Shown: one piece after another, positions 35,596 through 56,372 of the stretch | Numbering within the stretch: position 1 is the stretch's first letter | Layout of the letters: every line of letters starts with the position of its first letter | From: Chelativorans sp. YIM 93263 | Lineage (GTDB): Bacteria; Pseudomonadota; Alphaproteobacteria; Rhizobiales; Rhizobiaceae | Length of the DNA stretch: 64,000 nt | Assembly (NCBI RefSeq): GCF_028767125.1 | Contig: NZ_JAKCWP010000002.1 | Span: 499,930-563,929 of the forward strand | Reading direction: 5' to 3' | Made by a program: the position numbers and the translations under genes | Notes under the pieces: model-generated | The model's input: the letters and a program-made list of their open reading frames with translations, nothing else | Databases searched by the model: none | What the model was told of the DNA's origin: nothing

Positions 35596-36366
35596 ATGAC
35601 CGAAGACGACGAGCGCGGCTTTTTCGGCGAGGGCGCAGTCCAGCCGGCGGTGGAACCCGGCCGGAAAATAGGGAAGAAAGCAAGCAAAGGCGGCAAAAAG
35701 CATTATGAAGGTCACCGGGAGCGGCTGCGCCAGCGCTTCGACGAGGCCGGCAGCGACGCTCTTTCCGATTATGAGCTTCTGGAGATGCTCCTTTTCCGCT
35801 CCGTGCCGCGCGCCGATACCAAGGCACCTGCCAAGGCGCTTTTGGAGAAATTCGGCTCCATCGGCGAGGTTCTTGGCGCGCCGGAAAGCAGGCTGCGCGA
35901 GGTGCCCGGCATCGGCGAGGCCGCCGCGCGCGACCTGAAGCTCATCGCCGCCCTCACCCAGCGCATGCTGAAGGCGGAGGTGCGCGGACGACAAGTGCTC
36001 TCCTCGTGGTCGCAGGTGCTGGAATATTGCCGCGCGACCATGGCCTATGAGGACCGCGAACAGTTCCGCATTCTCTTCCTTGATAAAAAGAACGCCCTCA
36101 TCACCGACGAACGCCAGCAGGTCGGCACCGTCGACCACACGCCGGTTTACCCTCGCGAGATCGTGCGCCGCGCGCTGGAGCTTTCGGCAAGCGCCATAAT
36201 TCTGGTGCACAACCACCCTTCGGGCGACCCCACGCCCTCACGTGCCGACATCGAAATGACCAAGACCATCATCTCCACCGCCGAGCCGATGGGCATCACG
36301 ATCCATGACCATATCATTATCGGCAAGAACGGCCATGCGAGCATGAAGGGCCTGCAGCTGATTTAG
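35596..36366 (+). CDS. radC: RadC/JAMM-domain protein
   Basis: A 256-residue RadC family protein. A helix-hairpin-helix-like region ([15 protein letters not shown]) precedes the MPN/JAMM domain with metal motif [14 protein letters not shown]. The old role in DNA repair has been withdrawn for E. coli RadC and the function is uncertain. The first 35 residues are lysine-rich and disordered. An intrinsic terminator lies about 70 bases after the stop, ending the sfsA-map-radC unit. Confidence 0.93.
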
Positions 36367-40187: not shown

Positions 40188-41258
40188 ATGCCTATGAGCG
40201 GCGAGACGACGGAACCCTATTCGGCTGGTGGTGCCAGCGTACACCCCTGGCCGGGCAAAGCCGGCCCGGTGCATACGCGGGAGTCTCCGAGCTCGGCAAA
40301 CGGATCCCTTGCGCGCAATCCAGGCATGCCGCTCGACCTCGGCTGGCTGGAAGCCATGCGCCACGTCAACCGCAGTGCGCTGGAACGCCGTGCCGCGACC
40401 CTCACCAAACGCCGCTCGATCAAGAAGGATCATCAGGCAGCCTGGCTTTTGCGGGCCATTGCCGTCATGGACCTGACCACGCTTTCAAGCGACGACACAC
40501 AAGAGCGTGTGCGCCGGCTCTGCGCGAAGGCGCGCGATCCGTTGCGGGCCGATCTTGTCGTGGGGCTCAACATCGAGGAGGCAGACATTCGCCCTGCCGC
40601 CGTCTGCGTCTACCAACCTTTTGTCGCGACAGCCGTGAAGGCGCTGAAGGGCACGGATATCCACGTAGCCGCGGTCTCGACCGCTTTTCCGCACGGCCTT
40701 GCGCCGCTGGAAACGCGTATCAGTGAAATAGAGGCATCAGTCGCTGACGGCGCAGACGAGATCGACGTGGTCATCCCGCGCGGTCTGGTGCTCGGCGCAC
40801 AGTGGGAACGTCTCTATGACGAGATCACACGCTTCCGCGAAGCCTGTGGCAAGGCGCATCTGAAGGTCATTCTGGGTACGGGCGATCTCTCGACGCTGCG
40901 CAATGTCACGCTTGCCTCAATGGTGGCCATGATGGCGGGAGCCGACTTCATCAAGACCTCGACCGGCAAGGAAAGTGTGAACGCCACCCTGCCCGTGGGT
41001 CTCGCCATGGTGCGCACCATCCGCGCCTATCACGAGCGCACCGGCATCCATATCGGCTTCAAGCCGGCCGGCGGCATCTCGACGGCCAAGACAGCGCTCG
41101 AATGGCTGATCCTCATGCGCGAGGAGTTGGGCCGGCGCTGGCTGGAACCCGACCTCTTCCGCTTCGGCGCGTCCAGCCTGCTGACCGATATAGAGCGCCA
41201 GCTCGAGCATCACCTGACCGGGCGCTATTCCGCCGCCCACCGCCACGCCATGGCATAG
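40188..41258 (+). CDS. deoC: Deoxyribose-phosphate aldolase
   Basis: A 356-residue DeoC class I aldolase that splits 2-deoxyribose-5-phosphate to glyceraldehyde-3-phosphate and acetaldehyde. The Schiff-base lysine is in GADFIKTSTGKESVNATL, and GFKPAGGIST holds the second catalytic lysine. It has about 90 extra N-terminal residues compared with E. coli DeoC, as in other rhizobial versions. The start could be ATG 40188 or 40194. The ALDH gene 12 bases downstream would oxidise the acetaldehyde, so both form a deoxynucleoside catabolic unit. Confidence 0.93.
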   Translation: MPMSGETTEPYSAGGASVHPWPGKAGPVHTRESPSSANGSLARNPGMPLDLGWLEAMRHVNRSALERRAATLTKRRSIKKDHQAAWLLRAIAVMDLTTLSSDDTQERVRRLCAKARDPLRADLVVGLNIEEADIRPAAVCVYQPFVATAVKALKGTDIHVAAVSTAFPHGLAPLETRISEIEASVADGADEIDVVIPRGLVLGAQWERLYDEITRFREACGKAHLKVILGTGDLSTLRNVTLASMVAMMAGADFIKTSTGKESVNATLPVGLAMVRTIRAYHERTGIHIGFKPAGGISTAKTALEWLILMREELGRRWLEPDLFRFGASSLLTDIERQLEHHLTGRYSAAHRHAMA

Positions 41259-41270
41259 TCGGAGAAGACC

Positions 41271-43637
41271 GTGAACATCCTAGAACGATATGCGGCCATG
41301 GATTACGGCCCTGCACCGGAATCGCGTGCCGAAGCCGATGCCTGGCTGAAATCCCATAACTTTTCGAAAGCGCTTTTCATCGGCGGCGAGTGGCGGTCAG
41401 CAGCCTCCGGAGCAACCTTCTCCGTCGTAGAGCCGGCCACGGGCAAGCCTTTGGCGGATGTGTCGGATGCCGGCGCAGAGGACATCGGAGCCGCCGTCAA
41501 GGCCGCGCGCAAGGCCCTGCCCGCCTGGCAAAAGGCTTCCGGCTATGAGCGTGCTCGCATTCTCTACGCGATCGGCCGGGCCATGCAGCGCCACGCCCGT
41601 CTCTTTGCGGTGCTGGAATCCATCGATAACGGCAAGCCGATCCGCGAGAGCCGCGATATCGACGTGCCCCTCGCCGCACGCCATTTTATCCATCACGCCG
41701 GCTGGGCGCAGACCCTGGAAAAGGCCTACCCGGGCTATGAAGCGGCGGGTGTCGCCGGGCAGATCATCCCGTGGAATTTCCCGCTTCTGATGCTAGCCTG
41801 GAAGATCGCGCCCGCGCTGGCAACCGGCTGCACGGTGGTGCTGAAACCGGCGGAGTTCACGCCGTTGACGGCCATTCTCTTCGCCGAGATATGTGGCCGC
41901 GCAGGCGTGCCGAAGGGCGTCGTCAACATCGTCCAAGGCGGCGGCGAAACGGGCGCCGCCATTGTCGAGCACCCGGACATAGATAAGATCGCCTTCACCG
42001 GCTCGTCCGACGTGGGCAAGATCATTCGCAGCGCGACCGCCGGCACGGGCAAGAAACTTTCGCTGGAACTCGGCGGCAAATCGGCTTTCATGGTGTTCGA
42101 GGATGCCGATCTCGACAGCGCCGTGGAAGGGCTGGTGGACGGCATCTGGTTCAACCAGGGCCAGGTCTGCTGCGCCGGCTCTCGCCTTCTGGTGCAGGAA
42201 AGCGTGGCCGAAACCTTCATCGCCAAGGTGAAGGCGCGCATGGGCCATCTGCGTCTGGGCGATCCTCTCGACAAGAACACCGATATCGGCCCGCTGATTG
42301 CGCCAAGCCAGCTTGAGCGCGTGGAGAGCATGATAGCCGAAGGCGCGCGCCAGGGCGCTGAATGCTGGCAGCCGGCCAGCGACCTGCCACAGGAAGGCTA
42401 CTTTCACCTGCCCACACTCGCCACGGATGTTTCGCCCGCCAACATACTCGCTCAGGAAGAAGTATTCGGCCCGGTTCTGGCGACCATGACCTTCCGCACG
42501 CAGGAAGAAGGAATCGCGCTTGCCAACAACACGCGCTATGGCCTCGCCGCCTCGGTCTGGAGCGAAAACGTCAACCGCACGCTCCATGTAGCGCCGCAAC
42601 TTAAAGCTGGCGTGATCTGGATCAACGGCACGAATATGTTTGACGCGTCCGCCGGCTTCGGCGGCTACCGTGAGAGTGGGTTCGGCCGCGAAGGCGGACA
42701 TGAGGGGCTCTACGAGTATCTGAAGAAGCCGGAGAAGAAGGCCGCCTATAAATCGCTGCCGATGCCGGAGGCCGACAGCGAAGCAGGCGGAAGCGGCGTT
42801 ATCGACCGCACGCCGAAGCTCTTCATCAGCGGCAAGCAGACGCGGCCCGACGGCAACTATGCACTCGCCGTTACTGATCCCAAGGGAAAGGTTCTGGGCG
42901 AAGTGGGCGCGGGCAACCGCAAGGACATCCGCAACGCGGTGAGTTCTGCCCGCGCCAGCAAATGGGCGCAGGCCACGGCCTATAATCGGGCGCAGGTGCT
43001 CTATTATTTCGGCGAGAACCTTTCCGTTCGCGCGGAGGAGTTCGCTGGACGCCTCGCAAGCCTCACCGGGGCCAAACCGAAGGCCGCACAGGCGGAAGTC
43101 GAGCTTTCCATAGAGCGTCTGTTTGCTGCGGCCGGCATGGCAGATAAATATGAAGGTCGCGTCCACCAGCCGCCCATGCGAACTGTCACGCTGGCGCTCA
43201 ACGACCCGGTCGGCGTCATGGGTGTGGTTGCGCCGGACGAAGCCCCATTGCTGGCGCTCATCACCATGTTGGCCCCTGCCCTCGCCATGGGCAATGCGGT
43301 CGTTGCCGTGCCATCGCAGCGCTATCCGCTGATTGCGACGGACCTCTATCAAGTGATCGAGACCTCGGACTTGCCGGCCGGCAGCGTCAACATCGTCACC
43401 GGCGATAGTGCCGAGCTTGGCGCCGTGCTGGCTAAACACGACGACGTGGATGGTCTCTGGTGCATTGGCGAGGCCGAGCTTTCTGCGACGGTCGAGCGCG
43501 AATCCGCTGGCAATCTGAAGCGCGTGTGGACCAACGCCGGCCGGGCGGTGGATTGGACCGGGAATGATAAACTGGTGGACGATTTCTTGCGCCGCGCAGT
43601 GGAGATCAAAAACGTCTGGATACCGTACGGGGACTGA
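41271..43637 (+). CDS. Tandem-domain aldehyde dehydrogenase (ALDH16 type)
   Basis: A 788-residue protein with two ALDH folds in one chain. The first (about 1-480) is complete: GQIIPWNFPLLMLAWK, the NAD site AFTGSSDVGK, LELGGKSAFMVF with the general base, and catalytic C300 in NQGQVCCAGSR. The second (about 510-788) is a shortened ALDH domain (DRTPKLFISGKQTRPDGNYA, then DPVGVMGVVAPDEAPLLALI) without a recognisable catalytic cysteine. This arrangement defines the ALDH16 family. It follows deoC, so acetaldehyde is the probable substrate. Confidence 0.88.
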   Translation: MNILERYAAMDYGPAPESRAEADAWLKSHNFSKALFIGGEWRSAASGATFSVVEPATGKPLADVSDAGAEDIGAAVKAARKALPAWQKASGYERARILYAIGRAMQRHARLFAVLESIDNGKPIRESRDIDVPLAARHFIHHAGWAQTLEKAYPGYEAAGVAGQIIPWNFPLLMLAWKIAPALATGCTVVLKPAEFTPLTAILFAEICGRAGVPKGVVNIVQGGGETGAAIVEHPDIDKIAFTGSSDVGKIIRSATAGTGKKLSLELGGKSAFMVFEDADLDSAVEGLVDGIWFNQGQVCCAGSRLLVQESVAETFIAKVKARMGHLRLGDPLDKNTDIGPLIAPSQLERVESMIAEGARQGAECWQPASDLPQEGYFHLPTLATDVSPANILAQEEVFGPVLATMTFRTQEEGIALANNTRYGLAASVWSENVNRTLHVAPQLKAGVIWINGTNMFDASAGFGGYRESGFGREGGHEGLYEYLKKPEKKAAYKSLPMPEADSEAGGSGVIDRTPKLFISGKQTRPDGNYALAVTDPKGKVLGEVGAGNRKDIRNAVSSARASKWAQATAYNRAQVLYYFGENLSVRAEEFAGRLASLTGAKPKAAQAEVELSIERLFAAAGMADKYEGRVHQPPMRTVTLALNDPVGVMGVVAPDEAPLLALITMLAPALAMGNAVVAVPSQRYPLIATDLYQVIETSDLPAGSVNIVTGDSAELGAVLAKHDDVDGLWCIGEAELSATVERESAGNLKRVWTNAGRAVDWTGNDKLVDDFLRRAVEIKNVWIPYGD

Positions 43638-43722: not shown

Positions 43723-44880
43723 TCACCTCAGCTTGGGAACCAGCCGCTCCAGCATGCCGAGGCAGGCGGAAAGCTGCTCGATGGAGACGAATTCGTCCAC
43801 CTTGTGGGCCTGCTCAATCGAACCGGGCCCGCAGATGACGGCGGAAATGCCGGCGCTCTGGAACAGCCCGGCTTCCGTGCCGAAGGCGACGACTTCGGCC
43901 TCTGAGAGGCCCGTCAGTTCCGAGACGATGCGCCCGGCTTCGGATTCGGCAACCGGCTCCAGACCCTCGACCTCTCCGACCGTATGGGTGACGACATCGG
44001 CCTCCCCCCAAACCGCTCGCATCGCGGGTTTGAGCACCTCGTCGATATAGGCCAGGATGTTTTCCTTCACGAAATCCGCATCGCTTGCCTGAACCGGGCG
44101 CATTTCCCACTCCACGGAGCAGTGGTTGGCGATGACATTGCGCGCAGCGCCCCCTTCAATCCGACCGACTTGAAGCGTCGTCCAGGGCGGCTGAAACGGA
44201 CTGCTCGCGGGTGCACGCTCCTTCAAATCCTCGGCGAGTGCCATGAGGCGGCCTATATAGCGCACCGCATATTGAATCGCGTTCACGCCACGGTCTGGGT
44301 CGGACCCGTGCCCCTCCAGCCCGCGAAACTCGGTCGTGTACTCATAGCAACCTTTGTGGCCCTCAATGATGCGCATCAGCGTCGGCTCCCCGATGATGGC
44401 AGCAGCGGGGCGGATTTCCGCCCGCGCCAGATACTCCACTAACGCACGCGCCCCGAAGCAACCCACCTCCTCGTCGTAGGTGAAGGCGAAATGAAGCGGC
44501 CGTTTCAGCGGTTGCTCGGCGAATTGCTCGGCCATGGCGAGACAGCAGGCGATATAACCTTTCATATCGCACGTCCCGCGCCCGTAGAGTCGTCCTTCCG
44601 CCTCGCGCAGGATGAACGGATCGCTCGTCCAATCCTGCTCCTCGGCGGGGACGACGTCAGTGTGGCCGGAAAGCACAATACCGCCGTCCCCCTCCGGTCC
44701 CAGTGTGGCGAACAGATTGGCCTTCGTGCCCGTCTCGTCATGATGCATGGAGAGACGGGCACCAGCCCCGCTCAGGATCTCGCCGGCATAGGCGATGAGT
44801 TCTAGGTTGCTCTCTGCCGAGACCGTGGGGAACGCCACCAAATCGGAGAGAATATTCCGGGCTCGGAGGATGTTGGACAC
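43723..44880 (-). CDS. M20 family (ArgE-like) deacetylase in ectoine cluster
   Basis: A 385-residue zinc peptidase-fold deacylase. M20 metal ligands are H73 and D75 (LSGHTDVVP), D105 (GRGTCDMKG), E137/E138 (TYDEEVGC), E165 (IGEPT) and H359 (IEQAHKVDEF); all are present. Family members remove acetyl groups from N-acetylornithine and similar amino acids. It starts at GTG 44880, five bases after the doeA stop, in the same transcript. The product of DoeA from ectoine is an N-acetyl-diaminobutyrate, so this enzyme may supply the deacetylation step in place of the usual AstE-like DoeB/EutE. That role is inferred from context. Confidence 0.85.
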   Translation of the reverse strand: MSNILRARNILSDLVAFPTVSAESNLELIAYAGEILSGAGARLSMHHDETGTKANLFATLGPEGDGGIVLSGHTDVVPAEEQDWTSDPFILREAEGRLYGRGTCDMKGYIACCLAMAEQFAEQPLKRPLHFAFTYDEEVGCFGARALVEYLARAEIRPAAAIIGEPTLMRIIEGHKGCYEYTTEFRGLEGHGSDPDRGVNAIQYAVRYIGRLMALAEDLKERAPASSPFQPPWTTLQVGRIEGGAARNVIANHCSVEWEMRPVQASDADFVKENILAYIDEVLKPAMRAVWGEADVVTHTVGEVEGLEPVAESEAGRIVSELTGLSEAEVVAFGTEAGLFQSAGISAVICGPGSIEQAHKVDEFVSIEQLSACLGMLERLVPKLR

Positions 44881-44885
44881 TGACC

Positions 44886-46076
44886 TTAATCCTTCACGAT
44901 CAGTTCGCGCGGGCGCTTGCACAAGGTCTCGGCCGGCCCTTCTTCCTTGATCAGGATGCTCTCGGTGATTTCCAGCCCCCAATCGGCCATCCACAGACCC
45001 GGCATGAAGTGAAAGGTCATGCCCGGCTCCAGTACGGTTTCATCTTCCCGGCGCAAGGAAATGGTGCGCTCGCCCCAGTCCGGCGGGTAGGAGATACCGA
45101 TGGAATAGCCGCAGCGCCCATCGCGCTTGATGCCGGCCCTCTCCAAAGCACAGTAAAGCGCATCGGCCACATCGCCGGCGCGATTGCCCGGCCGTGCGGC
45201 TTCCAGACCGGCCTCGATTCCTTCGACCAAAGCTTTCTCCGCTTCCAGCATGTACTGCGGCGGCGTACCGAGAAAGATGGTGCGGCAGAAAGGTGCATGA
45301 TAACGGCGGTAGCAGCCGGCGATTTCGAAGAAGGTAGCATGGCCCTCTTCAAAGCGGCGCCCATCCCAGGTCAGATGCGGCGCGGCCGCATCCGAACCTG
45401 TCGGCAGAAGCGGCACGATGGCCGGGTACTCACCCCAATCGTCGTCGACGCCGCGAATGGCATCGGCATAGATTTCGGCCACAAGGTCGTTCTTCTTCAC
45501 GCCCGGTTCGATACGCTCAACAATGCCGTCTATGATCTTTTCCGAGATGCGTGCCGCCCGGCGCATGAAGGCCAGTTCCTCGTCGGACTTCACGGCGCGC
45601 TGCCAGTTCACCAGGCCCGTTGCATCGATGAATTTGGCGTCCGGAAGCTCTTCTTTGAGGACCAGGTAAGCCTTGGCCGAGAAGTAATAATTCTCCAGTT
45701 CCACGCCGATCCGCTGGTTGCCGTAACCGTGCGCGCGGATGATCTCGGCAAGATTCTGCATGGGGTGAAAGGCATTCGCCTGGATATAGTGATCCGGATA
45801 GCGAAGGACCCGCTCATCATCCATGTAGCAGGTGCGGATCGCGCCGTTCCCGTCCATGGAGCGCCCCCACCAGATAGGATCGTCATCCTTGAAGACGAGC
45901 ACGCCCTGATGGACGTAGAACGACCACCCGTCATATCCGGTGAGCCAAGCCATGCTGGAAGGGTCTTCTACGAACAGAATATCCATCCCCTGGGCTTCCA
46001 TGGCCTGGCGGGTCTTTTCCAGCCGGTTCGCATACTCTTGGACAGTAAAAGGCAATTGAGACTGAGATGCTGGCAT
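44886..46076 (-). CDS. doeA: Ectoine hydrolase DoeA (EutD)
   Basis: A 396-residue creatinase-fold (M24) hydrolase. SSMAWLTGYDGWSFYVHQGV, YFSAKAYLVLKEELPDA, LLPTGSDAAAPHLTWDG and SYPPDWGERTISLRREDE are the diagnostic blocks of DoeA, which opens the ectoine ring to N-acetyl-diaminobutyrate. The residues that bind metal in true M24 peptidases are largely replaced (FEIAGCYRRYHAPF, FHFMPGLW), as expected for creatinase-like enzymes. ATG 46076 has GGAGGAAAG directly upstream. It is transcribed divergently from ehuB and followed by the ArgE-like gene. Confidence 0.93.
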   Translation of the reverse strand: MPASQSQLPFTVQEYANRLEKTRQAMEAQGMDILFVEDPSSMAWLTGYDGWSFYVHQGVLVFKDDDPIWWGRSMDGNGAIRTCYMDDERVLRYPDHYIQANAFHPMQNLAEIIRAHGYGNQRIGVELENYYFSAKAYLVLKEELPDAKFIDATGLVNWQRAVKSDEELAFMRRAARISEKIIDGIVERIEPGVKKNDLVAEIYADAIRGVDDDWGEYPAIVPLLPTGSDAAAPHLTWDGRRFEEGHATFFEIAGCYRRYHAPFCRTIFLGTPPQYMLEAEKALVEGIEAGLEAARPGNRAGDVADALYCALERAGIKRDGRCGYSIGISYPPDWGERTISLRREDETVLEPGMTFHFMPGLWMADWGLEITESILIKEEGPAETLCKRPRELIVKD

Positions 46077-46292
46077 CTTTCCTCCGGAACCGTGCTGAGT
46101 CCCGGGCGCCTCGACACACGAAACAGCGACCGATCTGTGCACAGTTGCTTGATTTTCGAGAATACTCGGGAACTTCCTCCGATTGAACGGGCTAGCAATG
46201 CCGTTGACAACCGAATGAAGCACGTGATGTTGTATATATCAGGCGCTCTTAGCCAGCAATTCGAATTTTCAGCTCCAACTTGGGAGGAAACC
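46077..46292. promoter_or_regulatory. Divergent promoter region doeA / ehuB
   Basis: This 216-base gap drives doeA leftwards and ehuBCDA-eutBC rightwards. TTGACA at 46204 and TATATA at 46233 are AT-rich candidates on the ehuB side, but their spacing is 23 bases, too long for a standard promoter, so an activator may be needed. The DoeX-like AsnC regulator at 51.7 kb is the likely binder. No clear dyad was found. Confidence 0.55.
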
Positions 46293-47150
46293 ATGAAGCA
46301 ACTGGTTCTGAAAGGAATGGTGGCGGTCGCAGCTATCGCGGCATCCTTCGGCACCACTACGACGGCTGCCAACGCCCAGAGCACTCTGGAGCGTGCCCAG
46401 GAAGAGGGCTACATCCGCGTGGGTTTTGCCAATGAAGCCCCCTTCGGCTTCGCCACACCGGATGGCACGCTGACCGGGGAATCGCCCGAAGTGGCCAAGG
46501 CCGTTCTCGGGCGAATGGGTATTGAGGAGGTCGATGGCGTATTGACCGAGTTCGGCTCGCTTATCCCCGGGCTCATGGCCGGACGCTTCGACATCATCGC
46601 CGCCGGCATGTTCATTACGCCAGAGCGTTGCGAGCAGGTGCAGTTCTCAGAACCCTCCTATGGTATTGGCCAGGCCCTGCTCGTTCAGGAAGGCAATCCG
46701 GAAAACATCGTCGACTACGGCAGCATCGCCGACAACAGCGATCTGACGCTCGCCGTCATGGCTGGCGCCGTCGAGGGCGGCTATGCCGAGGACGCCGGGA
46801 TTCCCGATGATCAAATCATCATTCTTCCGGATCAGGCGAGCCTCGTCAGTGCGGTTGGGTCGGGACGCGCCGACGCTGCAGCATTGACCGCGCTTTCCAT
46901 TCAGCGCATGGCCGAGAACAATGACGGCGTCGAATCCACCGAACCCTTCTCCGAGGTCGCCGGTCAATCGGTCATGGGCCATGGCGGCTTCGCTTTCCGG
47001 CCCGACGACACCGAGCTTTATGAAGCCTTTAACGAGCAGTTGCAGGAGTTCATAGGCACGGAGGAGCACATCGAACTCGTCTCCGAGTTCGGATTTGGCG
47101 AAGGTTACCTGCCGACGGCAACCACGGAAGAGCTTTGCGCCGGCGAATGA
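46293..47150 (+). CDS. ehuB: Ectoine/hydroxyectoine-binding periplasmic protein EhuB
   Basis: A 285-residue solute-binding protein of the polar amino acid family. The signal peptide is residues 1-28, cleaved after AANA. The mature part carries YIRVGFANEAPFGFATPDG, LTEFGSLIPGLMAGRFDIIA and AAGMFITPERCEQVQFSEPS, characteristic of EhuB. It captures ectoines with high affinity and delivers them to EhuCD. GGGAGG lies 7 bases before ATG 46293; the open frame extends far upstream through doeA antisense and is not coding there. It is first in the ehuBCDA-eutBC operon. Confidence 0.95.
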   Translation: MKQLVLKGMVAVAAIAASFGTTTTAANAQSTLERAQEEGYIRVGFANEAPFGFATPDGTLTGESPEVAKAVLGRMGIEEVDGVLTEFGSLIPGLMAGRFDIIAAGMFITPERCEQVQFSEPSYGIGQALLVQEGNPENIVDYGSIADNSDLTLAVMAGAVEGGYAEDAGIPDDQIIILPDQASLVSAVGSGRADAAALTALSIQRMAENNDGVESTEPFSEVAGQSVMGHGGFAFRPDDTELYEAFNEQLQEFIGTEEHIELVSEFGFGEGYLPTATTEELCAGE

Positions 47151-47279
47151 ACCGGCCTGGCCGGCGCCGACAAACGGCGCCGGCGCTTTAATACCGCAAT
47201 GATGCCACCTGCAGAGAATGGGGAACGATGCGGTGGTCGGCGCTTACGCTCAGCGCATCGATGAATGAGGGGAGACGCG

Positions 47280-48002
47280 ATGCAGCTTCGCCCGCTCGCG
47301 GTCTGTGCAATCATCTTCTTCACAGCGGGACTGGCCATTTCCAGTTTCGCAGGCTTCCGCGAATTCATCCCCGGACTCCTTGAAGGTGGCTTGATCACAA
47401 TTCAGATCACGCTAGGAGGCGCGGTGGTTGCGATCGTCATGGCGCTTCTCGGGGCCATGGCGAAGATGTACGGCATCGGGCCGATCCGCTGGATCGCGGT
47501 CGCTTACATCGAGGTCTTTCGCGGCACGTCGGCGCTCGTGCAGCTCTTCTGGTTGTTTTTCGTTCTCCCCCACTTCGGCATAGTTCTCGACCCGATGACG
47601 GTGGCAATCGTTGCCCTTGGTCTGAACATCGGTGCTTATGGCGCGGAGGTTATCCGCGGCGCGGTCAATTCCGTGCCGCGCGGTCAGTGGGAGGCCTCCG
47701 TCGCCCTGAACATGCCGCGGGCGCTGTCTCTGCGGCGGATCATCCTGCCGCAGGCCTTTGTCGCCATGATCCCGCCCTGGGGCAATCTGTTTATCGAGCT
47801 CCTCAAGGCAACGGCTCTGGTTTCACTGATTACGATTTCCGATCTCACCTTCAGGGCGCAGCAGATGAACCAGATCACCTTCCGCACGGTTGAAATCTTC
47901 ACCATCGTGCTGATCGTCTACCTCGCTCTTTCAGTTTTGATCACGGTGGGCATGCGCACGCTGGAAACCTTTGCCGCCCGTGGCATCGCGCGGGGGAGGT
48001 AA
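47280..48002 (+). CDS. ehuC: Ectoine ABC transporter permease EhuC
   Basis: A 240-residue inner-membrane permease of the His/Glu/polar amino acid type with five to six helices. The EAA loop contacting EhuA is [32 protein letters not shown] 47280 has GAGGGGAGA upstream and is preferred to the ATG 5 codons earlier. A 129-base gap follows ehuB, which may allow the binding protein to be made in excess. It overlaps nothing and ehuD follows directly. Confidence 0.93.
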   Translation: MQLRPLAVCAIIFFTAGLAISSFAGFREFIPGLLEGGLITIQITLGGAVVAIVMALLGAMAKMYGIGPIRWIAVAYIEVFRGTSALVQLFWLFFVLPHFGIVLDPMTVAIVALGLNIGAYGAEVIRGAVNSVPRGQWEASVALNMPRALSLRRIILPQAFVAMIPPWGNLFIELLKATALVSLITISDLTFRAQQMNQITFRTVEIFTIVLIVYLALSVLITVGMRTLETFAARGIARGR

Positions 48003-48003
48003 T

Positions 48004-48681
48004 ATGCTCTGGGACTGGAACTACGTCTGGGAGATCATGCCGGCGCTCCTGCGCGCCTCCATTGTGACCGTTCAGGCAACACTATTGGGCTTCGTCCTCG
48101 CTGCTGTTCTCGGGCTGATCTTCGCCATCCTACGCATGTCGCGGTCAAACTGGATTTCCATTCCAACGGCGGGGTTTGTGGAGTTCATCCGCTCCACACC
48201 GGTGCTGATCCAGATTTTCTTTGTCTTCTTCGTCTTTCCCGAATTCGGCATCGTACTGCCGGCCATGGTGGCAGGCGTGATCGCCCTCGGGCTGCACTAT
48301 GGCACCTATTGCTCGGAGGTTTATCGCGCCGGGCTGGAAAACATTCCAAGAGGCCAGTGGGAGGCTTCGATCGCCCTCAATCTGAGCCCCTACATCACGT
48401 TCCGTGACATTATCATTCCCCAGGCGATCCCGCCGGTTATTCCTGCGCTGGGCAATTATCTCGTGGCGCTGTTCAAGGAGACGCCGCTGCTTTCGGCCAT
48501 TGCAGTCCTGGAATTGATGCAAACTGCGAAAATTCTCGGCTCGGAGAATTTTCGCTATGTTGAGCCGATGACGCTCGTGGGCGGATTCTTCCTTGTTATG
48601 AGCATCGTGGCGGCCGCCGGCATCCGCCAGGTAGAAGCCTACCTGAACCGCACCCTGCGAAACCCCGGAGGCGCGCGATGA
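48004..48681 (+). CDS. ehuD: Ectoine ABC transporter permease EhuD
   Basis: A 225-residue second permease, a paralogue of EhuC, with the EAA loop [29 protein letters not shown]. It forms the heterodimeric channel with EhuC. ATG 48004 has GGGGGAGG four bases upstream and starts one base after the ehuC stop. Its stop overlaps the ehuA start (ATGA), so EhuD and EhuA are coupled. Confidence 0.93.
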
Positions 48682-49454
48682 CCACTCCGATGGTCAAGTT
48701 CGACAACGTCACCAAGCGCTATGGATCGCTGACCGTTCTCGATTCGCTTAATCTCGACATAGCGTCGAACGAGAAGGTCGCCATTATCGGCCCCTCGGGC
48801 TCCGGCAAGACGACCGTGCTGCGTATGCTGATGACGCTCGAGCGCATTAACGAAGGCATTATCTATGTCGACGGCGAGCCCATGACGCATATGGAGCGGA
48901 ACGGCAAGCTGGTCCCCGCCAACGAACGCCATCTGCGCCGTGTGCGCGGCAATGTCGGCATGGTGTTTCAGCACTTCAATCTTTTCCCCCACATGTCGGC
49001 AATGAAGAACTGCATGGAGGCGCCGATCCACGTCCTGGGCCTTTCCAAGCAGGAGGCGGCCGACCGCGCGGCGGAGCTTCTCGACATGGTGGGGCTCGGC
49101 GACAAGAAGGACCAGTATCCCAGCCAGCTTTCCGGCGGCCAGCAGCAACGCGTGGCGATCGCGCGGGCCCTTGCCATGCGTCCCAAGGTAATGTTGTTCG
49201 ACGAGGTGACCTCCGCGCTCGACCCGGAGCTTGTCGGCGAAGTTTTGAACGTCATCCGCAAGTTGGGCACGGAACACAACCTGACCATGTTGATGGTCAC
49301 GCACCAAATGGGTTTCGCGCGCGAATTTGCCGACCGCGTCTGCTTTTTCTATGGTGGTAAAATCGCCGAGTCGGGCAAGCCGAGTGAAATCTTCAGCAAT
49401 CCCAAAGAGGAACGCACACGGCAGTTCCTGAGCGCCGTTCTGGAGGCAAGCTGA
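48678..49454 (+). CDS. ehuA: Ectoine ABC transporter ATPase EhuA
   Basis: A 258-residue ABC ATPase that energises ectoine import. Walker A is GPSGSGKTT, the Q-loop is [11 protein letters not shown], the signature is LSGGQQQR, Walker B is [13 protein letters not shown] and the H-loop is MVTHQM. It overlaps ehuD by four bases at the start and eutB by one base at the end (TGATG), tying transport and catabolism into one operon. Confidence 0.95.
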
Positions 49455-50473
49455 TGGCGACGACCGCGCTGGCGCTAGCCGATATCCTGGACGCTCGCCG
49501 AAGGATGGAAGGTGTAGCCACCCTTGACACACCGCTCGTCCCCTCCCCCTTTCTGAGCGAGGTCGCCGGCAGGGATGTTTTCCTGAAGCTGGAGATTGCC
49601 CAGGCCACCGGCGCCTTCAAGCTGCGTGGCGCGGCAAATGCAGTTGCGCTGCTGCCGCCGGAGACGGAGGGAGTAACCTGCTGCTCCACCGGCAATCACG
49701 GACGCGGAGTGGCGTATGCCGCGGCAAAGCGAGGCCTACGTGCCGTCATCTGCATGTCCACGCTGGTACCGAAGGCAAAGGTGGAGGGCATCCGCGCGCT
49801 CGGCGCGGAAGTGTGCATCGCCGGCAAGAGCCAGGACGAGGCGCAGGCGGAAAGCGAGAGGCTGGTGCGGGAGGAAGGCCTGACGGAGATCGCGCCTTTC
49901 GATGCCCTGCCCGTTATCGCCGGCCAGGGAACTATCGGACTGGAACTGATGGAGCAGAGGCCGGATTTGGAAACAGTCCTCATTCCGCTGTCGGGCGGTG
50001 GACTGGCCGGCGGCGTCGCGTTTGCGCTGAAACGCATCAAACCATCTATCCGCGTCATCGGCATCACCATGGATCGGGGGGCCGCCATGCATGCCGCGCT
50101 GCAGGCCGGCCGGCCGGCGGAAGTGACCGAGGTGGAAAGTCTGGCCGACTCTCTGGGAGGCGGCATCGGCGTTGACAACCGCTATTCCTTCTCGTTGTGT
50201 CGCGACTGCCTGGACGACGTGGTACTCGTGACCGAGGAGGAGATCTACCGCGCCATGCAGGCCCATTATTACGAGGACCGCATCGTCTGCGAGGGCGCGA
50301 GCGCTGTCGGTGCCGCGGCCCTGATGGCCGGAAAGCTGGGGGTGGTCAAAGGTCCGCTTGCCACCATCATCACCGGACGCAATGTGGATATGGCCGTCTA
50401 CACCGACATCGTGAACGGGCGTGACGTTCAACTTGGAGATTACCTGCTCAAAGGCGCCGCCTATGTCGCATGA
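49454..50473 (+). CDS. eutB: EutB, PLP-dependent hydroxyectoine-catabolic dehydratase
   Basis: A 339-residue PLP fold-type II enzyme of the threonine dehydratase / serine racemase family. The PLP lysine is in ATGAFKLRGAANA, and the phosphate-binding loop is SGGGLAGGVAFAL. Located between ehuA and eutC, it corresponds to EutB, which with EutC (and EutA in other bacteria) is thought to convert hydroxyectoine-derived compounds into the ectoine route. The exact reaction is inferred from studied relatives. It is coupled to ehuA and overlaps eutC by 11 bases. Confidence 0.87.
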   Translation: MATTALALADILDARRRMEGVATLDTPLVPSPFLSEVAGRDVFLKLEIAQATGAFKLRGAANAVALLPPETEGVTCCSTGNHGRGVAYAAAKRGLRAVICMSTLVPKAKVEGIRALGAEVCIAGKSQDEAQAESERLVREEGLTEIAPFDALPVIAGQGTIGLELMEQRPDLETVLIPLSGGGLAGGVAFALKRIKPSIRVIGITMDRGAAMHAALQAGRPAEVTEVESLADSLGGGIGVDNRYSFSLCRDCLDDVVLVTEEEIYRAMQAHYYEDRIVCEGASAVGAAALMAGKLGVVKGPLATIITGRNVDMAVYTDIVNGRDVQLGDYLLKGAAYVA

Positions 50474-51452
50474 TATTCTTATCCTGACCGAAACCGAATT
50501 GCGCAAGGCCGTTCATCTCGACACTCAGGTGGTTGAAACGGTCGAGCAGGCATTTGCCGCGCTCGGCACCGGGAAGGTCATCATGCCGCCTATTCTTTCG
50601 ATGGCCATTGCCGAAGCGAATGGCGAGGTGGACGTGAAGACGGCCTATATTCCCGGTTTCGAAGGCTTTGCGATAAAGGTCAGCCCGGGGTTTTTCGACA
50701 ATCCGAAGATCGGACTGCCGAGCCTCAATGGCCTGATGATCCTCTTCTCGGCAAAAACCGGGCTGGTCCAGGCCGTGCTGCTCGACAACGGATACCTTAC
50801 GGACGTGCGCACGGCCGCTGCGGGCGCCGTCGCCGCCAAACATCTGGCGCCCCAGAAGGTGGAGACGGCCGGCGTTATGGGAACCGGCGTGCAGGCGCGC
50901 CTTCAGATTGAGGCTGCCCATCTGGTACGCCCGTTCGAGCGGGTCCTCGTCTGGGGCCGTAATCCGGAAAAAGCACAGGCTTGCGCCAATGATATTGCTG
51001 TGAAGCTCGGCATCGAAGCGAGCGCAGAGAGCGATCCGGCCCGGCTTGTGGCGGAAAGCCAGCTCGTTGTTACCACGACACCCGCGGAAGAGCCGATCTT
51101 CAAGGCAGAATGGCTACATCCCGGCCTGCATGTGACGGCCATGGGCTCCGACCAGGAGGGAAAGAACGAGATCGAGCCGCGAGCACTGGTCGATGCCGAT
51201 CTCTATGTGGCTGACCGTGTGAGCCAGTGCGAAAAGCTTGGGGAGTTGCGCTCTGCCGTTCACGCGGGGGTATGGACCGGGGCAAAGCCGACCGAGCTTG
51301 GCGAGATTGTCCAGGGCAAGCAAGGCCGCGTCGACGCCGATCAGGTCACCCTATGCGACTTGACGGGCACCGGCGCCCAGGATACGGCAATCGCCACCTT
51401 CGCGCTTTCTACGGCTAGGGAAGCGGGCGCCGGCTCGATCACGAAAAGTTGA
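50463..51452 (+). CDS. eutC: EutC, ornithine cyclodeaminase-like enzyme
   Basis: A 329-residue member of the ornithine cyclodeaminase / mu-crystallin family with a C-terminal Rossmann fold: TAGVMGTGVQARLQIEAA binds NAD, and DVKTAYIPGFEGFAIKVSPGF and NGYLTDVRTAAAGAVAAKH form the active site. The position after eutB identifies it as EutC of the hydroxyectoine branch. ATG 50463 lies inside the end of eutB, so the two are translationally coupled. It closes the ehuBCDA-eutBC operon. Confidence 0.88.
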   Translation: MSHDILILTETELRKAVHLDTQVVETVEQAFAALGTGKVIMPPILSMAIAEANGEVDVKTAYIPGFEGFAIKVSPGFFDNPKIGLPSLNGLMILFSAKTGLVQAVLLDNGYLTDVRTAAAGAVAAKHLAPQKVETAGVMGTGVQARLQIEAAHLVRPFERVLVWGRNPEKAQACANDIAVKLGIEASAESDPARLVAESQLVVTTTPAEEPIFKAEWLHPGLHVTAMGSDQEGKNEIEPRALVDADLYVADRVSQCEKLGELRSAVHAGVWTGAKPTELGEIVQGKQGRVDADQVTLCDLTGTGAQDTAIATFALSTAREAGAGSITKS

Positions 51453-51652: not shown

Positions 51653-52153
51653 ATGCTCAAGCTCGACGATCGCGACCTGAAAATTCTTTCCATTCTTCAG
51701 AAGGAAGGCCGCATATCCAAAACCGCACTCGCCGAGCGGGTAAACCTTACGCCGGCTCCCTGCTGGGAACGTCTCAAGAGGCTGGAAGAGGCTGGTATCA
51801 TCAGGGGTTATCACGCCGACATCGCGCTGAACAGGATCGTGCCGCACGTCGTTATCTTCATGGCGGCGGAGCTGGAAGGGCACCGGGCGGAAAACTTCCA
51901 GCTCTTCGAACGCTCGGTGCAGAAGATTGACGAGATCGTCGGCTGCTGGGCCGTGGGCGGCGGCTTCGATTACATTCTCCAGGTCGTCGCACGCGATATA
52001 GACGCCTACCAGCGCCTGGTGGATCAGCTCCTGGAAACCCGGCTCGGACTCGTGCGCTATTTCACCTACATCGTGACCAAGCCGGTGAAGAAGCCCTCCG
52101 GAGTTCCGCTTGAGCCGTTTTTATGGACGACCGACGAAGCGCAGAAAGAATAA
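51653..52153 (+). CDS. doeX: Lrp/AsnC-family regulator, DoeX-like
   Basis: A 166-residue Lrp/AsnC regulator: an N-terminal HTH (LDDRDLKILSILQKEGRISKTALAERVNLTPAPCWERLKRLEEAGII) and a C-terminal RAM/ligand-sensing domain. DoeX/AsnC proteins are the usual regulators of ectoine degradation genes and respond to diaminobutyrate-type intermediates, and this gene sits in the middle of the cluster. It starts a second unit downstream of eutC, with ssd, the second M24 gene and the aminotransferase gene. Confidence 0.87.
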   Translation: MLKLDDRDLKILSILQKEGRISKTALAERVNLTPAPCWERLKRLEEAGIIRGYHADIALNRIVPHVVIFMAAELEGHRAENFQLFERSVQKIDEIVGCWAVGGGFDYILQVVARDIDAYQRLVDQLLETRLGLVRYFTYIVTKPVKKPSGVPLEPFLWTTDEAQKE

Positions 52154-52269
52154 GCGGCAAAGGCCGCGATCTAAGAAAAAACGCAGGCTGCACGCTGGGG
52201 ATTTCCAGCGAATTTTTTTCTTCGGAAGCCTTATTTTATGGGCAGAATTCTCAGCCATGGAGTGAGCTG

Positions 52270-53754
52270 ATGTCTGCCCTTGCAGCCCTAGAAAAAACAG
52301 CCCTTTCCGACCTTCAGGATCCGCGGCTCTTTCGCGAATACGCCTATGTCGACGGGCGTTGGGTCGCCGCGACCTTCGACGCAAGTCTCGACGTGATCAA
52401 TCCAGCCGACGGCGCGCGCATCGGCAGCGTGCCCGCGCTTGGCGCAGCGGAGATGGACGAGGCCATCGACGCCGCACACAAGGCGTTTGCCGACTGGTCC
52501 AGGCTTCTGCCCCAGGAACGCGCCGCCTTTTTACGCCGCTGGTACGAGCTGATCGTTGATGCGAAGGAGGATCTTGCCCATCTCATGGTCCTCGAACAAG
52601 GCAAGCCTCTTTCCGAAGCCCGTGGCGAGATCGACTATGCGGCGTCCTTCATCGATTTCTATGCCGAGGAAGCCAAGCGCATGAACGTGGAAAGCGTGAC
52701 CTCGCACCTGCCGGATGCGGAGATGCGCATTTCACGCGAGCCCATCGGCGTGGCGGGGCTGGTTACGCCCTGGAACTTTCCTTCCGCCATGCTGACCCGC
52801 AAGGCGGCCGCCGCGCTTGCCGCCGGCTGCACCGTGGTTGCACACCCTTCCTCCGAAACGCCGTTCTCGGCGCTGGCCCTGGCCGAACTCGCCGAACGCG
52901 CGGGCATTCCCGCCGGCGGGTTCAACGTGCTGACCGGCAAGGCATCCGAGGTCGTCGGGGCCATGACCGCATCGGCCAAGGTTCGCGCTCTCTCATTCAC
53001 CGGCTCGACCGAGATCGGCCGCCTGCTTTATGGTCAGTCCGCCCCCACCGTCAAAAAGTTGGTGATGGAGCTCGGCGGGCATGCCCCATTCATCGCCTTC
53101 GCCGACTGCGACCTGGACCGCGCGGTGGAGAGCGCCATGATCGCAAAATTTGCGACCTCCGGCCAGGACTGCCTGGCAGCGAACCGCTTTTATATCGAGC
53201 GGGCGATCTATGACGACTTTGTGGAGGCGTTCGCCAACAAAGTGCGTGAGCTCACCGTCGGTCCCGGGCTTTCCGATCCCGATATCGGCCCGCTGATCCA
53301 TGGCCGGGCGGTTGGTAAGCAGGAAGAACATGTGACCGACGCACTGGAGAAAGGCGCACGTCTGGTCGTCGGCGGGAAACGCGCCGAAGCAGGCGAGAAT
53401 TTCTTCCAGCCCACGGTCCTGGCAGATGTTCCGGAAGATGCGCAGATCTTCCGCGAGGAGACCTTCGGCCCGGTGGCCGGCTTCACACCGTTCGATGACG
53501 AGGACGATGTGCTCGCCCGCGCGAACGACACCGAAACCGGTCTCGTGGCCTATGTCCACACGCAAAGCCCCACACGTATCGCCCGCTTCTCCAGGGAGCT
53601 GGAATTCGGCATGGTGGCTGTCAACCGCACCAAGATCACCGGCGCGCCCATACCCTTCGGCGGAATCAAGCAGGCCGGACTTGGGCGCGAAGGCTCCCGC
53701 CTCGGAATGGAAGAGTTCACCAACGTCAAGTATGTCTGCGCCGACACGCGCTAG
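52270..53754 (+). CDS. ssd: Succinate-semialdehyde-type dehydrogenase of the ectoine cluster
   Basis: A 494-residue GabD-type aldehyde dehydrogenase. VTPWNFPSAMLTRKAAAALAAGC, the NAD site SFTGSTEIGR, MELGGHAPFIAF and catalytic C301 in SGQDCLAANRFY are complete. In ectoine catabolism such an enzyme (Ssd/DoeC) oxidises aspartate semialdehyde to aspartate. ATG 52270 begins MSALAALEKT; an upstream in-frame stretch overlaps the end of doeX and is rejected. It is second in the doeX unit. Confidence 0.9.
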   Translation: MSALAALEKTALSDLQDPRLFREYAYVDGRWVAATFDASLDVINPADGARIGSVPALGAAEMDEAIDAAHKAFADWSRLLPQERAAFLRRWYELIVDAKEDLAHLMVLEQGKPLSEARGEIDYAASFIDFYAEEAKRMNVESVTSHLPDAEMRISREPIGVAGLVTPWNFPSAMLTRKAAAALAAGCTVVAHPSSETPFSALALAELAERAGIPAGGFNVLTGKASEVVGAMTASAKVRALSFTGSTEIGRLLYGQSAPTVKKLVMELGGHAPFIAFADCDLDRAVESAMIAKFATSGQDCLAANRFYIERAIYDDFVEAFANKVRELTVGPGLSDPDIGPLIHGRAVGKQEEHVTDALEKGARLVVGGKRAEAGENFFQPTVLADVPEDAQIFREETFGPVAGFTPFDDEDDVLARANDTETGLVAYVHTQSPTRIARFSRELEFGMVAVNRTKITGAPIPFGGIKQAGLGREGSRLGMEEFTNVKYVCADTR

Positions 53755-53771: not shown

Positions 53772-54986
53772 ATGTTCGCGAACCCGTTCACCGATGAGGA
53801 ACTCGGCCGAAGGCTTGAGGCGGTGCGCCGCGCAATGGAAGAGCGCGGGCTGGACATGCTGCTGTTGTCCACGCCGGAGAACATCTTCTATCTGACCGGG
53901 CTCGACCACTGGGGCTATTTTGCGCCGCATCTGCTCGTCGTCCCCATGGAGGGCGAGATGGTGCTCATCACCCGTTCGATGGAGCGCGTCTCCATTGAGC
54001 GGCAAGTGCGCAATGCCCTTTTCGAAGGCCATACAGACAACGAAACGGCCGCGGACCTGGCGGTGCGGCTTCTGAAGGACACGCGCAAAGCAAAAGACCG
54101 TTCTCGCGCTGCCCTGGAACAGGTGGTTGCCGAGATCGAGGAGCAAAGCGACGGCTCTATGCGCATCGGCGTGGAAACCTGGTCTTCCGGCCACCCATAT
54201 GGTTTCGGCTACGCTCTGCGCGCAAGCCTGTCCGACGTTCACTGGGTCGATATCACCGGGCTCGTGGACAAGCTGAGGCTCGTCAAATCACCCGCCGAAC
54301 AGAGACTGATGCGAAAGGCGGCCGGTGTTTCGGATATTGCCGCGAAAGCCGCGATTGACGCGATCGAGGATGGCGCCAGCGAGCGAGCCGTTGTAGCCGA
54401 GTGCCATGCGGCCATGATCCGCGCCGGTGGCGACACGCCCGGTTTCGGCCCGTTCATTCGGCCCGGCGCAAGGCTTGGCGAGGAGCACGCGACCTGGGGC
54501 AACGGTACCTACCGTGCGGGTGAACCGGTCTTCATCGAATTGTCTGGTTGCGTGGGCCGCTATCACTCACCGCTTGGCCGCCTGGTTCATGTCGGCTCGA
54601 TCCGGGACGAGGACGCCCGCATGGCTGAGGTGGCAAGCGACGCCTTTAACGCAGTGCTGGCGGCGCTGCGCCCCGGTGTTTTTGCCCGAGATGTTTATGC
54701 CGCCTGGCAAGCCGTCGTTGACCGGGCCGGCCTTGAACACCACCGCCGCCACCATTGCGGCTATTGTGTCGGCATCGGCTTTCCGCCTTCCTGGACCGGT
54801 GGAAACCGGGTGACGGGGCTGCGGCATGATTCCGATCTCGAAATCAACGAAGGCATGTCCTTCCACATTCTTTCCTGGCTCATGGGCACGGGGATGGGAG
54901 ACTTTTTTGTCTCGAATATCGTCCTGCTGGGGCCAAACGGGGTAGAGGTGCTGACGAAGACACCTCTCGGACCAACAATAAAATAG
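53772..54986 (+). CDS. Second creatinase-fold (M24) hydrolase of the ectoine cluster
   Basis: A 404-residue M24 family protein paralogous to doeA, with a creatinase N-terminal domain (LLLSTPENIFYLTGLDHWGYFAP) and a C-terminal pita-bread fold. As in DoeA, the canonical metal ligands are replaced (FIELSGCVGRYHSP; FHILSWLMGTGMGD), so it is probably a metal-free C-N hydrolase, not a peptidase. It lies between ssd and the aminotransferase gene in the doeX unit. It could act on 5-hydroxyectoine or a cyclic intermediate. No gene symbol is assigned because it is clearly distinct from doeA. Confidence 0.8.
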   Translation: MFANPFTDEELGRRLEAVRRAMEERGLDMLLLSTPENIFYLTGLDHWGYFAPHLLVVPMEGEMVLITRSMERVSIERQVRNALFEGHTDNETAADLAVRLLKDTRKAKDRSRAALEQVVAEIEEQSDGSMRIGVETWSSGHPYGFGYALRASLSDVHWVDITGLVDKLRLVKSPAEQRLMRKAAGVSDIAAKAAIDAIEDGASERAVVAECHAAMIRAGGDTPGFGPFIRPGARLGEEHATWGNGTYRAGEPVFIELSGCVGRYHSPLGRLVHVGSIRDEDARMAEVASDAFNAVLAALRPGVFARDVYAAWQAVVDRAGLEHHRRHHCGYCVGIGFPPSWTGGNRVTGLRHDSDLEINEGMSFHILSWLMGTGMGDFFVSNIVLLGPNGVEVLTKTPLGPTIK

Positions 54987-54995
54987 GAGACCGCC

Positions 54996-56372
54996 ATGCT
55001 GCTGAAAAATGACCAACTCGATCAATGGGACCGGGAGACTTTCTTCCACCCCTCCACCCATCTCGCCCAGCATGCCCGCGGCGAAAGCCAGAACCGGATC
55101 GTAACCGGCGGTAAAGGCGTCTATATTGAGGATCGCGACGGCAAGCGCCTGCTCGATGCCTTTGCCGGGCTCTACTGCGTCAATGTCGGCTATGGCCGCA
55201 CGGAAATCGCCGATGCCATCGCCGAGCAGGCAAAGGAACTTGCCTACTATCACGCCTATGTCGGCCACGGCACCGAGGCGTCCATCACCCTGGCCAAGAT
55301 GATCCTCGACCGGACGCCCGAATCGATGTCGAAGGTCTATTTCGGCCTCGGCGGCTCGGACGCGAACGAGACCAACGTCAAGCTGATCTGGTACTACAAC
55401 AACATTCTCGGCCGTCCCGAGAAGAAGAAGATCATCTCGCGCTGGCGCGGCTATCACGGTTCCGGCCTGATGACCGGCTCGCTCACCGGGCTTGAGCTGT
55501 TCCACAAGAAGTTCGACCTGCCGCTGGCGCAGGTTTTGCACACGGAAGCGCCGTACTATTATCGCCGCCCGGACCCCGGTATGAGCGAGGAAGCCTTCAC
55601 GGCCCATCTCGTGGCTGAGCTTGAAGCACTGATCGAGCGTGAGGGCGCCGACACCATTGCGGCCTTTATCGGTGAGCCTGTACTGGGCACCGGCGGCATC
55701 GTGCCTCCCCCGGCCGGTTACTGGCAGGAAATCCAAAAGGTGCTGAAGAAGCACGACATCCTGTTGGTTGCAGACGAGGTCGTAACCGGTTTCGGCCGCC
55801 TCGGCTCCATGACCGGCTCCAAGCACTACGACATCGAGCCCGACCTCATCACCATCGCAAAGGGACTCACCTCGGCATATGCACCGCTTTCCGGCTCCGT
55901 CGTCGGCAAGAAGATGTGGGACGTGCTGGAGCGCGGCACGGACGAGAACGGCCCTATCGGTCACGGTTGGACCTACTCCGCCCACCCCATCGGCGCGGCC
56001 GCCGGTATCGCCAATCTGAAGCTGGTCGACAGCCTCGGGCTGGTGGAGAACGCCGGCGAGACTGGTGCCTATTTCGTCCAGGCGATGAAGGATGCCCTCG
56101 GTGATCACGCCCATGTGGGCGAGGTGCGCGGTGAAGGCATGCTCTGCGCGGTTGAATTCACCGAGGACAAGGAAAGCCGCCGCGCCTTTGATCCCTCGCA
56201 GAAGATCGGCCCGCAGATGGCCGCCGCTTTGTTGAGCGAGGGCGTCATCGGCCGCGCCATGCCGCAGGGCGACATTCTCGGCTTCGCTCCGCCGCTCTGC
56301 CTGTCGCGCGAAGAGGCGGACAAGGTCGTTGAAGCGACCGCCAAGGCTGTCAAGACGGTCTTCAAGGACTGA
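54996..56372 (+). CDS. doeD: Class III aminotransferase, DoeD-like
   Basis: A 458-residue PLP aminotransferase of class III. The PLP lysine is K289 (ITIAKGLTSAYAPLSG), and LVADEVVTGFGRLGSM is the conserved strand. The large N-terminal HPSTHLAQHARGE region is typical of omega-aminotransferases. At the end of the ectoine cluster it matches DoeD/Atf, which converts diaminobutyrate to aspartate semialdehyde, the substrate of the upstream dehydrogenase. AGGAGA lies 5 bases before ATG 54996. A GC-rich hairpin follows. Confidence 0.87.
   Translation: MLLKNDQLDQWDRETFFHPSTHLAQHARGESQNRIVTGGKGVYIEDRDGKRLLDAFAGLYCVNVGYGRTEIADAIAEQAKELAYYHAYVGHGTEASITLAKMILDRTPESMSKVYFGLGGSDANETNVKLIWYYNNILGRPEKKKIISRWRGYHGSGLMTGSLTGLELFHKKFDLPLAQVLHTEAPYYYRRPDPGMSEEAFTAHLVAELEALIEREGADTIAAFIGEPVLGTGGIVPPPAGYWQEIQKVLKKHDILLVADEVVTGFGRLGSMTGSKHYDIEPDLITIAKGLTSAYAPLSGSVVGKKMWDVLERGTDENGPIGHGWTYSAHPIGAAAGIANLKLVDSLGLVENAGETGAYFVQAMKDALGDHAHVGEVRGEGMLCAVEFTEDKESRRAFDPSQKIGPQMAAALLSEGVIGRAMPQGDILGFAPPLCLSREEADKVVEATAKAVKTVFKD

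Follow-up and report, generated by a model that had tools for sequence, protein, structure and literature searches.

In a 64,000-nucleotide stretch of DNA from Chelativorans sp. YIM 93263 (contig NZ_JAKCWP010000002.1, positions 499,930 to 563,929; hereafter the window), the gene directly downstream of the ectoine hydrolase gene doeA (also named eutD) encodes an ArgE-like protein of the M20 family. This protein very probably is a non-orthologous replacement of the deacetylase DoeB/EutE, acting as a di-zinc deacetylase of N-alpha-acetyl-L-2,4-diaminobutyrate, a step that the available text of published pathway descriptions assigns to DoeB/EutE (PMC3187862, PMC5924519, PMC8739950). This reading is carried by the gene order, the lack of an EutE match in the genome, the finding that M20 and EutE genes exclude each other almost completely, the co-occurrence of M20 with DoeA, the ArgE fold, and the active-site residues.

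The doeA gene (44886–46076, minus strand) encodes 396 amino acids and matches TIGR02993 with 613.0 bits (cut-off 613) as well as the solved Halomonas elongata DoeA (PDB 6twj/6twk) over nearly its full length with 524 bits. The M20 gene (43723–44880, minus strand) is intact, starts with GTG and encodes 385 amino acids. The stop codon of doeA (44888–44886) is followed by five bases and then by the M20 start codon at 44880 on the same strand, which bears out the five-base junction described in an earlier, sequence-only reading of this DNA. That reading had also seen no DoeB/EutE gene in the cluster, and we likewise found no homologue of EutE, EnuR or EutA in positions 36001–60000 of the window. 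A search of the whole genome for DoeB/EutE, which it had proposed as a check, was run on the 4.25-Mb draft (27 contigs, 99.99% complete); profile searches with TIGR02994, PF04952 and PF24827, covering DoeB/EutE and AstE/AspA, gave zero matches each at E ≤ 0.001, and the window M20 protein itself was also not matched by TIGR02994 at that threshold. As a control, 75 of 199 genomes of the window's family scored over the TIGR02994 cut-off, which shows that the search works in this family. The possibility that a distant EutE was missed by one model was rejected, since three models were tried and none matched in the genome. By these searches, the M20 gene is without detectable EutE backup here.

M20 and EutE genes beside doeA

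We surveyed 199 genomes of the window's family (survey 1) by cross-tabulating all DoeA rows with 59 M20 rows and with EutE rows, of which all 75 over the cut-off and 20 that score lower were included; the remaining listed M20 rows (about 37–45% identity) were compared by eye with the doeA positions, and none was adjacent. The M20 counts of this survey are counts among the matches listed. DoeA was found in 125 of the 199 genomes, and the gene directly downstream was EutE in 76, M20 in 42, both in none and neither in 7. The EutE match was over the cut-off in 75 of the 76 genomes, and the one in G043 is a fragment of 147 positions below it. Both deacetylase genes lie downstream of doeA on the same strand, with gaps between the aligned stretches of 4–248 bases for M20 and 8–255 bases for EutE. 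No EutE over the cut-off was found anywhere in the M20-adjacent genomes (0/42). M20 proteins at least 55% identical to that of the window occur in 40 genomes, each of them with DoeA; the gene is adjacent to doeA in 38 and lies on another contig than DoeA in G087 and G101. The other four adjacent M20 proteins (G019, G121, G191 and G164) are 46–48% identical.

A second survey covered 198 genomes from the family of Sediminimonas qiaohouensis (G216), with limits of E 1e-110 for EutE, at least 50% identity for M20 (two rows below 50% were dropped) and E ≤ 1e-130 for DoeA. DoeA was present in 122 genomes. EutE over the cut-off was found in 26, all of them DoeA genomes, and adjacent to DoeA in 25, while M20 was found in 84 genomes, 83 with DoeA and 63 with the two genes adjacent. 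The 122 DoeA genomes comprised 24 with EutE only, 81 with M20 only, 2 with both (G235 and G341) and 15 with neither (Fisher p 3.5e-13 for the exclusion, which is not a strict probability because the species are related). The linkage of doeA and M20 is not due to chance, because it recurs in both family samples (42 and 63 genomes); a chance neighbourhood was thus rejected by both cross-tables.

The pair was also followed in a named set of 80 loci (L044–L123), where it is adjacent in 55. The hosts include Chelativorans, Nitratireductor, Mesorhizobium, Aminobacter, Stappia, Hoeflea, Ruegeria sediminis, Litoreibacter and Aliiroseovarius. At least one of eutB, eutC, doeX, doeC and doeD lies nearby in 46 of the 55 adjacent loci and at least two in 36; ehuBCD is found in 20, and L061 has ehuB and ehuC near the pair. 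None of the 80 loci has an EutE, EnuR or EutA match above 100 bits. Outside this set, an EnuR-like gene (267–299 bits) is found in L140, which belongs to a second M20 lineage, and a weak EutA match (114 bits) in the M20-linked L240. The M20 gene is not adjacent to doeA in the other 25 loci, of which 17 are titled Roseovarius. When 17 of the 25 were tested, DoeA was found in all 17 genomes, 12 of them Roseovarius; L067 seems to be G148 again, a genome that also has an adjacent copy. In six Roseovarius doeA regions that were fetched, doeA is divergent from eutB-eutC-doeX-doeC-doeD in five and lies near doeD only in one, and none of these six regions contains an EutE match. L094 (G214) and L066 are titled Oceanobacillus and Myxococcaceae and carry an alphaproteobacterial-looking M20 gene; G214 groups with the Sediminimonas family, and the records may be mistitled or the assemblies may be mixtures. 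Taken together, the proposed replacement of EutE by M20 is well supported and extends further than the sequence-only reading could show; this non-orthologous displacement would be common in Rhizobiales and Rhodobacterales.

The DoeA tree (128 rows, quick tree) has an M20-linked and an EutE-linked side, with a minimum of three changes of partner. Of the seven M20-linked DoeA rows that fall on the EutE side, G033, G131 and G196 branch at its base, and the others (G019, G164, L069 and L090) are nested inside it; therefore, DoeAs from one and the same side can have either partner as a neighbour. When M20-linked and EutE-linked DoeAs were compared (99 + 51 rows, of which 85 and 47 are distinct), 96 near-invariant positions were common to both and 3 differed by class. 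In a 45-row tree of the M20 proteins, a branch supported at 100/99 sets apart the main clade, which is made up of the linked and the Roseovarius forms, and the four adjacent proteins of 46–48% identity lie outside this clade. A topology that unites both M20 lineages (31 rows) in one clade against the 14 others was rejected (approximately unbiased test, p-AU 0.007). The two lineages group as sisters along with three unlinked genes, including two from DoeA genomes without EutE (G184 and G114), and this weakens the proposal that M20 was recruited independently more than once; a single ancient recruitment followed by loss of linkage could still account for the tree.

Several observations weigh against the replacement. 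Neither deacetylase lies beside DoeA in 7 of 125 genomes of survey 1, two of which carry a member of the M20 clade on another contig, and neither was found in 15 of 122 DoeA genomes of survey 2; the doeA regions of four of these 15 (G224, G281, G409 and G279, about 18 kb) contain no EutE or M20. A weaker, sub-cut-off EutE-like match is present elsewhere in 16 of the 42 M20 genomes, though not in the window genome, and G341 has doeA-eutE plus an unlinked M20 gene on another contig. In eight of the 55 named loci with an adjacent pair, no further ectoine gene was recognised within up to about 8 kb on each side (one is a 4.2-kb contig). The window DoeA only just equals its family cut-off, and DoeA homologues 64% identical to it occur in plasmid clusters without ectoine genes, so that likeness to DoeA alone is no proof of an ectoine substrate. 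Finally, G235 holds a classical eutABCDE-type cluster, which reads enuR-uehPQM-usp-eutABCDE-asnC-ssd-atf (named by homology, by reading and by position as in Ruegeria pomeroyi), together with a distant, bare doeA-M20 pair; since the classical cluster is kept there too, the pair may have another duty in G235.

DoeA relatives were also seen in other settings. On plasmids L149 and L150 (63–64% identical) they adjoin genes annotated as short-chain dehydrogenase/reductase and mandelate-racemase family, and in L131 and L132 (58–60%) a gene reading as trimethylamine-methyltransferase-like; no deacetylase is found in either setting, hinting that DoeA has another use there. The stand-alone pair of G235 (L235, L236) adjoins a gene reading as a GntR-type regulator. 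In Rhodobacterales, doeA (L240, L243, L245–L250 and others) is flanked by an ATP-binding cassette (ABC) transporter reading as polyamine-type, often together with a class III aminotransferase, and this transporter could be an unrecognised ectoine importer.

The arrangement in G235 raises the alternative that doeA and M20 degrade a cyclic amidine or an acetylated diamine related to ectoine, and not ectoine itself, and that the ectoine-like transporter and eutBC/doeCD serve that compound or both. The largely separate grouping of M20-linked and EutE-linked DoeAs would fit this, as would the frequent polyamine-type transporter beside Rhodobacterales doeA (the type being our reading). We consider this alternative improbable, since the window pair diverges from ehuBCDA-eutBC-doeX-doeC-doeD, the conserved DoeA positions are almost identical in both classes, and M20 lies beside EutE-side DoeAs in several genomes, one of which (L141) has the pair in a cluster with eutBC and ehuBCDA.

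The M20 protein and its predicted reaction

The M20 protein passes NF005710 (481.5 bits, cut-off 412) and TIGR01892 (403, cut-off 297.7) and falls below the enterobacterial-type model NF003474 (275.8, cut-off 460). Its nearest solved relative by sequence is Escherichia coli ArgE (196 bits). An AlphaFold model built from 41 aligned sequences has a mean predicted local distance difference test score (pLDDT) of 95.3, and its best fold match is again E. coli ArgE in the di-zinc form (8uw6_B; Z 42.7, root-mean-square deviation 2.4, 368 aligned, 33% identity). The seven residues that bind metal or act in catalysis in E. coli ArgE are all present in the M20 protein (H73, D75, D105, E137, E138, E165 and H359), in agreement with the earlier statement that all zinc ligands are kept. 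These seven residues are invariant in 123 of 123 rows of the M20 clade (109 distinct sequences). Compared with 14 other ArgE-like paralogues, the clade has near-invariant residues of its own around the GHKG strand, such as E173 (all rows) and C178 (99%); our guess is that residues of this type read the shorter side chain of diaminobutyrate.

The window protein thus has the fold and the metal and catalytic residues in common with ArgE (PDB 8uw6/7rsf). ArgE-type enzymes remove the N-alpha-acetyl group from ornithine, a diamino acid one carbon longer than diaminobutyrate, and the window protein would putatively carry out the same chemistry. Unlike ArgE, it lies among ectoine rather than arginine genes and has the clade-specific residues. 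It shares with DoeB/EutE (EC 3.5.1.125) of H. elongata and R. pomeroyi the slot directly downstream of doeA/eutD and, by its position, would share the reaction, whereas DoeB/EutE belongs to the AstE/AspA (M14-like) family and the window protein to M20 with an ArgE fold. With no EutE match in the genome and this same slot filled by EutE in alternative genomes, the proposal of the sequence-only reading that an ArgE-like M20 enzyme may replace DoeB/EutE gains support.

In the predicted pathway, ectoine would be imported via EhuABCD, and DoeA would open the ring to give N-alpha-acetyl-L-2,4-diaminobutyrate. The di-zinc M20 enzyme would then cleave the alpha-acetyl group, releasing acetate and diaminobutyrate, with E137 as the presumed general base by homology to ArgE, and DoeD and DoeC would convert diaminobutyrate to aspartate. 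Because ArgE removes the alpha-acetyl group of ornithine, which is longer by one carbon, we infer the alpha specificity of M20; the substrate and a need for the M20 gene during growth on ectoine are likewise predicted.

The isomers made by DoeA bear on this specificity. The accessible part of PMC5924519 reports that H. elongata DoeA yields the alpha and gamma acetyl isomers at 2:1 and that DoeB seems not to use the gamma form; for a methanotroph DoeA, mainly the alpha isomer is given in what is available of PMC7192451. A gamma isomer that DoeB apparently leaves unused would suit an M20 enzyme acting on hydroxylated or N-gamma-acetyl intermediates, with another, unlinked enzyme deacetylating N-alpha-acetyl-diaminobutyrate; this is very unlikely, as no EutE/AstE-type match is present in the genome and M20 occupies the exact slot that EutE has in alternative genomes.

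The sequence-only reading had also proposed a search for separate argE and argJ genes, and this search found ArgJ in the genome (399 bits) as well as a second ArgE-like protein, 43% identical, on another contig, which adjoins a gene reading as a LysR-type regulator. ArgJ recycles the acetyl group, and because it is present, arginine synthesis should be able to proceed without M20. No arginine-synthesis gene was identified beside M20 among the window open reading frames (ORFs) and in the family scans. That M20 is an ordinary arginine-pathway ArgE beside doeA by accident is hardly credible and was rejected, despite its passing TIGR01892 and NF005710 and its nearness to E. coli ArgE, given ArgJ and the second ArgE-like gene, the linkage to doeA (in 42 of the 125 DoeA genomes of survey 1 and 63 of the 122 of survey 2, with EutE almost always lacking), and the finding that only 1 of the 84 clade genomes of survey 2 is without DoeA (E ≤ 1e-130).

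The surrounding gene cluster

Divergent from doeA, the plus strand carries the rest of the predicted pathway. The gene for the ectoine/hydroxyectoine binding protein EhuB (46305–47150, a start chosen by us within ORF 45009–47150) matches TIGR02995 with 303.5 bits (cut-off 190.9). It is followed by ORFs for the ABC permeases EhuC and EhuD (47265–48681; 43% and 52% identical by tblastn to the annotated genes of Sinorhizobium sp. B11, L148) and for the ABC ATPase EhuA (48678–49454; 63% to the annotated ehuA of L148). Next are eutB (49454–50473; NF005680 448.5, cut-off 413; TIGR02991 435.2, cut-off 413.35) and eutC (50466–51452, a start chosen within ORF 50421–51452; NF006141 488.9, cut-off 408; TIGR02992 470.1, which is 1.55 bits short of the cut-off of 471.65). 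An ectoine transporter together with eutB/eutC, as expected of a doe/eut cluster, is therefore present in the window, with TIGR02995, TIGR02991/NF005680 and NF006141 over their cut-offs.

Further downstream lie a doeX-like Lrp/AsnC regulator gene (51653–52153, plus strand; NF008370 112 bits, below the cut-off of 233), which has the same position in related clusters, and a doeC-like aldehyde dehydrogenase gene (52276–53754, plus strand, a start chosen within ORF 52123–53754) whose product is succinate-semialdehyde dehydrogenase-like and scores 611.5 bits with NF008415, below the cut-off of 828. The doeD-like gene for a class III aminotransferase (54996–56372, plus strand) passes NF005684 (842.2, cut-off 687), a family named 'hypothetical protein'; its putative role comes from position and homology.

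Between doeC and doeD is a gene for a second M24 protein, a DoeA-like paralogue (53772–54986, plus strand) that is well below the cut-offs of both ectoine hydrolase families (210 bits with NF038259, DoeA_2, cut-off 575) and has 141 bits to 6twk. Its relatives adjoin eutC in L062 and L077, and because eutA was not found in the stretch, the protein might serve hydroxyectoine. On the other side, a deoC-like gene and a gene for a 788-amino-acid protein with two apparent aldehyde dehydrogenase domains (40188–43637, plus strand) are convergent to M20; these genes recur beside M20 in 4 of the 80 named loci (L044, L045, L049 and L054).

Probable ectoine degradation beyond eutD-eutE pairs

AbgB is an M20-family enzyme. 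Bacillaceae clusters without eutE that contain abgB, termed a 'putative amidohydrolase', were reported in 2026 (PMC13188858) and, from their description, resemble the window in having such a gene in an ectoine cluster without eutE; set beside the window by that description and not by sequence, they differ in gene order and host phylum. The available text of PMC13188858 does not state that abgB substitutes for eutE and does not mention an ArgE-like gene. It places the EutD of Roseovarius and Nitratireductor in a divergent clade C, with no other deacetylase named in that text. DoeA genomes without doeB were already in print in 2011, as far as the accessible part of PMC3187862 goes. In our searches of open-licence literature we found no report that links an ArgE-like enzyme to ectoine breakdown, and none of growth of Roseovarius or Nitratireductor on ectoine.

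According to the text available of each, one survey defined degraders by juxtaposed eutD-eutE, counting 363 of 8,850 genomes and EnuR in 278 of the 363 eutD/eutE clusters (PMC8739950), and the 2026 survey focused on genomes with EutD, EutE and EutB (PMC13188858). In this genome the EnuR search covered positions 36001–60000 of the window and gave no match above 100 bits, and most M20 clusters likewise have no EnuR close by; the inducer of EnuR is the substrate proposed for M20. Because EnuR responds to the metabolite that M20 would remove, regulation may differ in M20 clusters. It is likely that the ArgE-like enzyme is the main ectoine deacetylase in the marine Rhodobacterales of survey 2 (M20 only in 81 genomes, EutE only in 24) and in roughly one third of the DoeA genomes of the window's family, as part of a second version of the pathway under different regulation that was overlooked because surveys use eutD-eutE pairs.

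The accessible part of PMC13188858 describes ectoine as a nutrient that bacteria scavenge both in the sea and on land. If the proposed role of M20 is true, counts based on eutD-eutE would miss many presumed ectoine degraders of sea and soil among Rhodobacterales and Rhizobiales. The idea that EutE helps EutD to release its product, as proposed in the accessible text of PMC8739950, would need a test with an unrelated partner, and a large group of proteins now annotated as acetylornithine deacetylase would be given a function.

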